DNA of 40,207 nucleotides. Origin: Halothiobacillus sp. (GTDB lineage: Bacteria > Pseudomonadota > Gammaproteobacteria > Halothiobacillales > Halothiobacillaceae). The notes under the pieces were generated by a model. That model ran no database searches. It had not been told where the DNA came from and was given only the letters and a program-made list of their open reading frames with translations. Location of the stretch: assembly GCA_020061705.1 (NCBI GenBank), contig JAGUXT010000011.1:1-40207 (forward strand). Direction: 5' to 3'. This document shows, piece after piece, positions 1,846-28,462 of this stretch. The translations under genes and the position numbers were made by a program. Each line of letters starts with the position of its first letter. Positions within the stretch are counted from its first letter, which is position 1.

Positions 1846-2088
1846 AACTCGGTGCGCTCCTTAATGAGTGAGCAGGTTTTAAGGAAGCTCTGAAAAATTC
1901 GGAGCATCCCAAAGGGCAAGGAAGTTATCGAAATACTTCATGCGGGCAGATGGCATTCTCAGGGAGATATGTGACAACTCCATGTTTTTTAAAGAAATGA
2001 TATGGGTTGTTTTATCTTGTGGTGTGCAGCCTGGAGAGCAGGCGCTTGTGCTAGGCTTGCCACCTTCCGGGGTGTTTTGTATTTCTTA
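1846..2088. other. Intergenic stretch before the mtn operon
   Basis: This stretch, together with the element at 2089-2193 and the mtnB leader to 2219, makes a 374-bp gap between the divergent PhnD-like gene and mtnB. It should hold promoters for both, but I could not find a pair of -35 and -10 boxes convincing enough to call. A forward open frame starting at 1940 crosses the mobile element and runs into mtnB in another frame; I regard it as non-coding. Confidence 0.4.
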
Positions 2089-2193
2089 TAGGACTTACGC
2101 AAAACCGCCCCAGCGGCGTTCAAGCGCCTCGCCGTACTTCGGTGTACTGTCTTCGGCGCTTTGCCTTGCTGGAACACTTTTGCGTAAGTCCTA
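2089..2193 (+). mobile_element. MITE-like element, copy 1 (105 bp, intact termini)
   Basis: The ends are perfect 16-bp inverted repeats: TAGGACTTACGCAAAA at 2089-2104 and TTTTGCGTAAGTCCTA at 2178-2193. The element is flanked by the direct repeat TCTTA (2084-2088 and 2194-2198), a 5-bp target-site duplication. The interior is also partly self-complementary: CCAGCGGCGTTCAAGCGCC on the left resembles the complement of GGCGCTTTGCCTTGCTGG on the right. It is far too short to encode a transposase, so it must be moved in trans. It ends 21 bp (including the duplication) before the mtnB start. Related copies lie at 6609-6694 and 14347-14451. Confidence 0.9.
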
Positions 2194-2219
2194 TCTTAAA
2201 CAAGAGGGAGAGGCTGAAA

Positions 2220-4187: not shown

Positions 4188-4583
4188 TCAATCAAGCCGA
4201 TTGCGCATGTGATCGGCCACGCTCCATAGTGATTGATACAGCTCTTCACGGAACACCGGGTCTTCGACCGTTTGATCGAGAGCGTGGCGCATGCAGTGCA
4301 TCCATTGGTCGCGCATATTGGTATCCACGGCGATTTGCATGTGGCGCATACGCAGACGCGGGTGGCCGTGGCGCTCCATGAACAACTGAGGGCCGCCCAG
4401 CCAGCCGGATATAAATTCGAACAGCTTTTGTTCGGCTTCGTCCACGTCACGATGAATCGCAAGCAGCTCGCGCACGCTGGGTAGCTCGCGCATGGCGCTG
4501 TACATGCTTACGGTCAGGCGGCGCACACCGGCCTCGCCACCGATTTTTGAATAGGCTGTGATTTGCGGGATAACCTGATTCAT
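4188..4583 (-). CDS. Group II truncated haemoglobin
   Basis: A 131-residue 2-on-2 globin that binds haem and O2, and possibly NO or sulfide. Group II features are visible: the SGWLGGPQLF segment, the RHGHPRLRMRH stretch leading to the proximal histidine in RHMQI, and the invariant Trp (position G8) in RDQWMHCM. A tyrosine in SMYSAM is a candidate for B10. Length fits the family. GAGG lies about 10 bp before the ATG. It is transcribed divergently from typA, sharing a 113-bp promoter region. In a sulfur oxidiser a role in oxygen or NO handling is plausible but is inference. Confidence 0.88.
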   Translation of the reverse strand: MNQVIPQITAYSKIGGEAGVRRLTVSMYSAMRELPSVRELLAIHRDVDEAEQKLFEFISGWLGGPQLFMERHGHPRLRMRHMQIAVDTNMRDQWMHCMRHALDQTVEDPVFREELYQSLWSVADHMRNRLD

Positions 4584-6576: not shown

Positions 6577-6607
6577 GAACCCGGCTTGTCCGGGTTCTTG
6601 TTTTTTT
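6577..6607 (+). terminator. Rho-independent terminator of typA
   Basis: GAACCCGG (6577-6584) pairs with CCGGGTTC (6590-6597) and is followed by TTGTTTTTTT to 6607. The left copy of the TTTTG target duplication of the mobile element (6604-6608) is part of this T run. Confidence 0.88.
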
Positions 6608-6608
6608 G

Positions 6609-6694
6609 TAGGACTTACGCAAAACCGCCTCGCCGTGCTCGGTTGTAATGCCTTCGGCGCTTTGCCTTGCTGGAACACTTTTGCGGAAGTCCTA
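6609..6694 (+). mobile_element. MITE-like element, copy 2 (86 bp, internally deleted)
   Basis: Left terminus TAGGACTTACGCAAAA (6609-6624) and right terminus TTTTGCGGAAGTCCTA (6679-6694, one change from copy 1). It is flanked by the direct repeat TTTTG (6604-6608 and 6695-6699). Compared with copy 1 it lacks 19 bp of the left interior, between the CCGCC and TCGCC segments, which fits slippage between short GCC repeats. The right-hand duplication TTTTG is directly continued by GAG to form the ffh ribosome-binding site. Confidence 0.88.
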
Positions 6695-6709
6695 TTTTGG
6701 AGTGGTTAC

Positions 6710-14242: not shown

Positions 14243-14346
14243 GAAATCCTGGTGGGGCAATGAATATGAATTACGACAGCCTACCAAAGCCAAGCCCGCT
14301 GGTCTAAGATGGTGCGGTTTTGTCACGGAAGCACGCGACTTATTCA

Positions 14347-14451
14347 TAGGATTTACGCAAAACCGCCCCAGCAGCGTTCAAGCGCCTCGCCGTATTTAGT
14401 TGTACTGGCATCAAAGCTTTGCCTTGCTGGATCAATTTTGCGTAAGCCCTG
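14347..14451 (+). mobile_element. MITE-like element, copy 3 (105 bp, diverged termini)
   Basis: Left end TAGGATTTACGCAAAA (14347-14362) and right end TTTTGCGTAAGCCCTG (14436-14451), with one and two changes from copy 1. It is flanked by the direct repeat ATTCA (14342-14346 and 14452-14456). It has the same length and orientation as copy 1 and a similar interior (CGCCTCGCCGTA, then GCTTTGCCTTGCTGG). It lies between divergent dciA and secA; its target duplication ends 24 bp before the secA ATG. The diverged ends suggest this is the oldest of the three copies. Confidence 0.88.
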
Positions 14452-14480
14452 ATTCACTTATAAAGCATAAAGAGTTAAAG

Positions 14481-17395: not shown

Positions 17396-17509
17396 GCCGT
17401 GAACGGAGTGCCGAAGGTGAGGTAAACAGGCCATGGATGGCCTGTTTAGTCCCGTCGCAACATGGATGTTGCGTTGGGACGGCTTTGCCGTAGGCGCTGC
17501 GTTCACGGC
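17396..17509 (-). repeat. Branched hairpin module D (114 bp)
   Basis: Outer stem GCCGTGAACG (17396-17405) pairs with CGTTCACGGC (17500-17509). Inside are AAACAGGCCAT/ATGGCCTGTTT (17424-17447) and GTCCC-CGCAACAT/ATGTTGCG-GGGAC (17449-17480), both centred on CATGGATG. It has the same layout as the module at 17789-17901 but opposite orientation and different stem sequences. Confidence 0.75.
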
Positions 17510-17788
17510 TTGCCCGCAGGGCGACCCCTCAGGGGTGCATTTCTTTGGTGACTTTCTTTGTGCAAGCAAAGAAAGTTACTCGCCCGTTGCCACGTTCATT
17601 TGCAGCGGAGTGGCTACGTCAAGACGGGCGAAAAGGCCCACCGCCCGTTCAAGGCCGGTGGCATTATTTCGTCCGTTTCAAGGTTGCACGCTGCACCGGC
17701 CATGTTTGTCACGGACGAGTTCCTTTCTTTGCTTGTCCAAAGAAAGGAACCAAAGAAAGACACCCCGTTGATGCCGCCCTTCGGGCAA

Positions 17789-17901
17789 GCCGTGGACTGG
17801 CCTGCTCCAGCCGGGTCGTCTCAACACGACATCCTGTCGCGGAGAGACTAAATGCGCCATCCATGGCGCTATTACCCAGCCTCCACAGGCCAGTCCACGG
17901 C
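17789..17901 (+). repeat. Branched hairpin module A (113 bp)
   Basis: Outer stem GCCGTGGACTGGCCTG (17789-17804) pairs perfectly with CAGGCCAGTCCACGGC (17886-17901). Inside are GTCTC/GAGAC (17818-17848) enclosing CGACA-TCC-TGTCG, and GCGCCAT-CC-ATGGCGC (17854-17869). The stretch 17801-17915 is repeated at 21596-21710 with 5 differences in 115 bp. Confidence 0.8.
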
Positions 17902-18024
17902 GGCATCAAAAGGGGACGGAAAAACCAAAGCCGCGCAGTCGGCAGGGCGTGTCAAACAAACCTTCACTTTGTAACAGTCCCCGTCCATCATTAACGCCAT
18001 TCATTGACCAAGGAGCTGCACACC

Positions 18025-28300: not shown

Positions 28301-28462
28301 CATGCCAGGCTGCTGAAATATTCATTTCAGCAGCCTGGCATGGCGGGACATGAATGTCCCGCACGCAAATCAATCACGCAAGTGGTTACTTTGCGGCTAC
28401 CCAATCCGGGCGTGTACCGGATTGGGTAGGGCTGAAAAAACTCATGGATGAGTTTTTTCAGC
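28301..28462. repeat. Array of four perfect hairpins
   Basis: In order: CATGCCAGGCTGCTGAAAT and its complement (28301-28319/28324-28342); GCGGGACAT-GA-ATGTCCCGC (28343-28362); TACCCAATCCGG/CCGGATTGGGTA (28398-28409/28417-28428); GCTGAAAAAACTCAT-GG-ATGAGTTTTTTCAGC as 15-bp arms (28431-28445/28448-28462). Together they fill the second half of the 260-bp gap upstream of phoD. The last may act as a terminator for the DUF2242 gene (minus strand), which ends 6 bp away. The second and fourth share the CATGAATG/CATGGATG core of the 17-kb repeats. Confidence 0.85.

Follow-up and report, generated by a model that had tools for sequence, protein, structure and literature searches.

Correia elements have been described as a feature of Neisseria only, with an unknown mobilising mechanism (PMC2649163), and have been called IS630-derived (PMC2817692). 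Their known effects on transcripts involve RNase III, promoters and IHF (PMC2649163, PMC10969869). Among MITEs, those for which no insertion sequence with the same ends resides in the genome are termed type II and are known in Anabaena (PMC3542288), and for the Nezha MITE, movement by ISNpu3-like elements has been proposed (PMC3049150). How does a short repeat found in Halothiobacillus compare with these systems? The window considered here, that is, the whole stretch of 40,207 nucleotides that was analysed, is one of the 62 contigs (contig 22) of a draft genome of 2.27 Mb and contains three copies of the repeat, whose features are as follows.

2084..2088, unstranded: target duplication TCTTA, left of copy 1 (5 bp)
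2089..2193, plus strand: MITE copy 1 (105 bp; perfect 16-bp terminal inverted repeats)
2109..2173, plus strand: hairpin core of copy 1 (covariance model R1, 78 bits; RNA fold)
2194..2198, unstranded: target duplication TCTTA, right of copy 1 (5 bp)
6604..6608, unstranded: target duplication TTTTG, left of copy 2 (5 bp)
6609..6694, plus strand: MITE copy 2, between bipA and ffh (86 bp; left part of the core missing)
6695..6699, unstranded: target duplication TTTTG, right of copy 2 (5 bp)
14342..14346, unstranded: target duplication ATTCA, left of copy 3 (5 bp)
14347..14451, plus strand: MITE copy 3, directly upstream of secA (105 bp; ends with mismatches)
14452..14456, unstranded: target duplication ATTCA, right of copy 3 (5 bp)

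The initial annotation had placed the three copies at exactly these coordinates and had given each a different direct repeat, and TCTTA, TTTTG and ATTCA are indeed found directly outside the ends on both sides of the respective copy. The 16-bp ends that it described as shared are present in all three copies, but they are not identical: only copy 1 has two perfect ends, while copy 2, an internally shortened form of 86 bp, has one mismatch in its right end, and copy 3 has one mismatch in its left end and two in its right. With up to two mismatches allowed, the end is matched six times in the window, compared with a mean of 0.17 and never more than one in shuffles. As had also been said, the copies encode no transposase, and the element is non-coding. 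Rfam 15 gives no match over the element in the window at the gathering score, and below this threshold generic hairpin matches only. Elsewhere in the window, two matches to the Rfam TwoAYGGAY RNA above the gathering score lie on opposite strands, at 17756-17922 (minus) and 17424-17482 (plus), and positions 28340-28383 (minus) match another interspersed repeat, which is found beside the MITE copy on L116 and at more than ten further places.

A family of three, as it was first presented, understates what the genome holds. In the stretches around end matches and BLAST hits of the same genome, 67 profile matches were obtained, 65 of them above 50 bits, and this number of copies is a lower bound, because the initial scan listed 90 candidates. 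The element is mostly 102-112 bp long, clustering at 103-105 bp and typically 104 bp, and its terminal inverted repeat is YAGGACTTACGCAAAA, where Y is T or C. Perfect 5-bp duplications flank 29 of the 65 copies, while 0.74 are expected, with a maximum of 4, when left and right flanks are re-paired; over all 65 copies, 77% of the bases in the flanking 5-mers agree between left and right, and flank repeats at lengths of 2-4 and 6-11 bp stay at chance level. The 29 perfect duplications are nearly all distinct in sequence and A+T rich (77%). Over these copies, the tabulation of termini and flanking 5-mers that the initial annotation had proposed turned out in its favour, and the consistent lack of duplications that it had set against its own claim is not what is observed. 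According to a crude gene call, 60 of the 65 copies are intergenic, and their orientation relative to neighbouring genes is unbiased (19 same, 14 opposite), so that there is no pointer to a host function on one strand and a strand-specific role relative to genes is unsupported. Such mostly intergenic and unbiased placement fits better with a selfish element that is tolerated than with a regulator acting on one strand. Two other stretches of this genome carry the same ends around another interior: L070:2528-2700, 172 bp long with CCCCTCTCCCC hairpins and TTAAG duplications, and L084:8557-8828, 272 bp long with CCCCCTTTGAAAAAGGGGG repeats.

Did these copies really arrive by insertion? For seven copies, the two flanks were fused and the resulting sequence was compared with the four congeners. 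Where the window has copy 2, the sister species G003 shows a continuous bipA-ffh spacer that contains TTTTG only once. Copy 3 is missing in this species too, as is a copy found on L115 of the own genome. Another copy of the own genome, on L085, is absent from G004, where a single ATCAT is left, and its site is matched without interruption in G003 too. Copy 1, on the other hand, is shared: G003 carries it at the orthologous site, flanked likewise by TCTTA repeats, and it is therefore older than the split from G003. Sharing of the same copies at the same loci with relatives, which the initial annotation had counted against transposition, is thus seen for copy 1 and not for copies 2 and 3. Because of the 5-bp duplications and the absence of copies 2 and 3 from the sister species, the element is a non-autonomous, non-coding transposable element (MITE), which moves with a 5-bp target duplication. 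Matches to the element in the congeners number at least 40 in G003, 20 in G004, two in G002 and none in G001; in G004 one lies at 4281-4385, and it is found at the same place in DYLI01000013.1, a record titled Halothiobacillus neapolitanus.

The initial annotation had predicted a parental insertion sequence sharing these ends; no such sequence turned up in the stretches examined from the own genome, nor in relatives or in other genomes where these ends abound. The Pfam family DDE_Tnp_1 (PF01609) has no match in the own genome, and no locus of this family, whether in the relatives or in four end-rich genomes, is bracketed by a pair of these ends. Paired ends lying 0.5-3.5 kb apart with matching 5-mers in the fetched stretches gave no convincing parent; these pairs are adjacent MITEs, longer MITEs (172-198 bp) and, in L344, a likely chance pair. 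Plasmid records held no parent element, and viral contigs with the 15-mer end were too few and mostly at chance level. The end sequence YAGGACTTACGCAAAA was not found in the relevant papers searched.

The ends themselves are found widely. When species genomes were scanned for pairs of 15-bp ends with 60-85 bases between them, at least 115 stretches were obtained, and among the matches listed the ends occur in Undibacterium, Glaciimonas, Collimonas and Rhodoferax, in the cyanobacteria Nostoc, Brasilonema, Fischerella, Pseudanabaena and Okeania, and in one Chloroflexi MAG and one Desantisbacteria MAG. Perfect 5-bp duplications flank 70 of 118 such same-ended elements among the matches listed, which include Betaproteobacteria and Cyanobacteria, while 1.1 are expected. 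Their interiors, again among the matches listed, form types, of which the proteobacterial ones are alike and the cyanobacterial ones unrelated. One type of end is therefore combined with several interiors.

The interior is where the link to Correia elements lies. The initial annotation had taken it merely as shared sequence; in fact it is a conserved core common to elements with other ends. A BLAST comparison of the element consensus with plasmid records gave a match to a Massilia plasmid and, at 90.6% over 32 nt, one to a Neisseria gonorrhoeae chromosome deposited among those records. The gonococcal match falls within a 107-bp Correia element, at the same position between the ends; the Massilia element is bounded by ends of a third type. 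Used as a query, the Correia element in turn finds the Massilia core at E = 4.3e-9. A core profile built from Halothiobacillus only, with the ends removed, recovers every one of 19 gonococcal Correia cores, scoring them between 22.0 and 28.2 bits; the maximum in 3800 dinucleotide shuffles of Correia cores is 8.5 bits. Covariance model R1, whose alignment contained no Correia row, matches 11 Correia elements along its full length, with scores of 47-60 bits. The core is also found in 20 of 79 Oxalobacteraceae genomes, inside palindromes of about 100 bp with varied ends (AGGACTTACGC, AGAGCGCCTAACAAA, GCGGGCCTGA, GTGTTTCCCAAC, GAGGCCGTTTC and others), and R1 has matches at E <= 1e-4 in 39 of 369 Gammaproteobacteria (GTDB sense), many of them multi-copy and including another genus of Halothiobacillus's own family. 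In G129 the core stands between GAGGCCGTTTC ends, and five of the seven copies measured there have CTWAG duplications; in G232, G321 and G007 core hairpins form inverted pairs inside longer palindromes. One core thus occurs with several end types and targets.

Some further observations were made along with these matches. In G102, G139 and G118 (L502, L507 and L508), the core-bearing unit stands in tandem arrays with a period near 104 bp. Several contigs of G394 (L581 and L583-L586) terminate within a core-bearing element, so the repeat breaks short-read assemblies. On the Candidatus Desantisbacteria contig MNYI01000050.1, which also carries a same-ended MITE, L268:1383-1443 is a core-like hairpin of 23.6 bits in another long palindrome, and it is possible that the core extends beyond the Proteobacteria. 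An Rfam match to AaHKsRNA41 on a Correia locus was rejected, being a generic long hairpin with a terminator and not the core.

The core of about 63 nt is composed of a lower stem, a GTT bulge opposite a TT bulge, a middle stem, an internal loop (CTCGCC versus TGTCTTCG) and a tip (GTAC/GTAC). In a set of 37 diverse cores, 83.3% of cells are paired under the three-helix structure (71.2 in shuffles), and 92 cells show a double change (32.0 in shuffles). The covariation score of 0.331, compared with 0.135 for shuffles, was reached in 0 of 500 shuffles, and slid controls gave at most 0.105; these shuffles ignore the relatedness of the 37 cores. The distant R1 matches keep the covariation (0.473 versus 0.131, in an alignment fitted to the model). 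The unpaired GTT, CTT and internal loop are almost invariant across cores, and the minimum-energy RNA fold of copy 1 has the same helices (z -7.7). The interior is thus a hairpin core whose structure is conserved, and it is suggested that the core acts in folded form, because its unpaired bases are conserved and its stems covary. It is to be noted that template switching in palindromes can produce covariation without selection, and palindrome correction could imitate part of that seen here.

Taken together, these findings make it likely that the element is a MITE of two modules, trans-mobilised ends and a shared folded core, which have been exchanged during evolution; ends and core are regarded as exchangeable because the same core is found with other ends and other target sites. 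The first module is the terminal inverted repeat YAGGACTTACGCAAAA, at which a trans-acting transposase, probably a DDE enzyme, would cut and then insert the element with a stagger of 5 bp. The second module would be the bulged hairpin, and the two may have been swapped via recombination or via insertion of the core into palindromes. The core would work folded, either as DNA or as RNA, and be recognised in this form by a protein that aids the persistence or spread of such elements. Such recognition is the most likely role we can infer for the core, with about an even chance of being right. More tentatively, and with slightly less than even confidence, the same bulged hairpin, which is uncatalogued in Rfam, may be an independent module of many miniature transposable elements that are otherwise unrelated, across the Gammaproteobacteria (GTDB sense), Correia elements included; these would be chimeras of exchangeable ends with this core and would owe their success to a protein recognising its fold. 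Against this modular and recognition view stand the failure to find a parent or transposase with these ends and the unbiased orientation relative to genes. Copy 2 has lost part of its core and yet has a perfect duplication, so that an intact core is possibly dispensable for moving, unless this copy was shortened after insertion.

What else might the element be? That it is a static palindrome or an assembly artefact can be regarded as refuted: the copies do lie near gene ends, where palindromes are common, but duplications at 29 of 65 copies and clean empty sites for copy 2 and the L085 copy bear out the true transposition for which the initial annotation had argued. It might also be an ordinary MITE made when the ends of a now lost insertion sequence were joined by internal deletion, the hairpin being a leftover. 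Short ends, a fixed target duplication and no coding capacity fit the usual definition of a MITE, and parentless type II MITEs have been reported, for example in Anabaena sp. 90 (PMC3542288). A leftover, however, would not recur across end types, whereas this core is shared by at least three unrelated ones with different target sites, it is most constant at its unpaired positions and its stems show covariation; we therefore find this origin quite improbable.

Less improbable, though still unlikely, is that the core is itself a mobile hairpin of the REP/REPIN kind, inserted by a single-strand transposase into the tips of palindromes. The core is indeed central in palindromes with unrelated stems, some genomes have two inverted cores within one long palindrome, and REP dimers in larger palindromes have been reported, including in Halothiobacillus neapolitanus (PMC3733652). 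Nevertheless, an unsystematic look noticed no GTAG or CGTC tag at the foot of the core, and no orthologous palindrome was found that lacks just the core. The core might, finally, be kept for an effect on its neighbours at the RNA level, such as RNase III processing or the stabilising or ending of transcripts, which is possible by analogy with Correia elements, themselves RNase III substrates with promoters (PMC2649163, PMC10969869). The strong RNA fold of copy 1 is consistent with this, and so is the intergenic position of 60 of 65 copies by the crude gene call; however, purging of insertions within genes also yields intergenic placement, and the orientation of neighbouring genes is unbiased, so we consider such an effect rather unlikely as the reason for retention.

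With the Correia core seen between other ends in Halothiobacillus, Undibacterium, Massilia and many genera, what was a curiosity of Neisseria becomes a widespread module, open to study in bacteria that do no harm. MITEs are usually seen as elements in which nothing but the ends counts, the interior being filler; here the reverse holds, as the interior is conserved and the ends vary, and the reason why the core is retained is now directly testable. No mention of Correia-like elements outside Neisseria was found in the literature searched, and neither the link to the Correia core nor the exchange of ends was found there or in Rfam, subscription literature being outside this search.

Among the described systems that come close to the element are Correia elements (CREE/NEMIS), whose form of 104-108 bp is likewise non-coding and intergenic, has terminal inverted repeats, is multi-copy (more than 100 copies per genome) and has the hairpin core in common. 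Correia ends, however, are TATAGTGGATT with a TA target, while this element makes a 5-bp duplication outside its TA/CA ends, and the 26-bp Correia repeat (TATAGTGGATTAA...) at both ends is not found here, YAGGACTTACGCAAAA standing in its place. The Tn3-derived TIMEs are also miniature elements with a 5-bp target duplication, and their ends are the Tn3 ends of about 38 bp; this element shares their small size and duplication, but its ends are not of the Tn3 type. The elements of Cyanobacteria (Nostoc, Pseudanabaena, Brasilonema) and other phyla have identical 15-bp ends and the 5-bp duplication and differ by unrelated interiors, most of them without the core. Nezha and the type II MITEs of Anabaena are cyanobacterial MITEs, as are these same-ended cyanobacterial elements, which are set beside Nezha by description only. 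REP/REPIN sequences are multi-copy hairpins, sometimes in inverted pairs or inside larger palindromes (PMC3733652), and in this resemble the core; they are 20-40 bp long, have a GTAG or CGTC tag (PMC3733652) and make no target duplication, while the present element, with its 104 bp, 16-bp YAGG ends and 5-bp duplication, falls outside that class. As a MITE, then, the element adds one more member to a known kind, and what is new is the link to the Correia core together with the probable exchange of ends.
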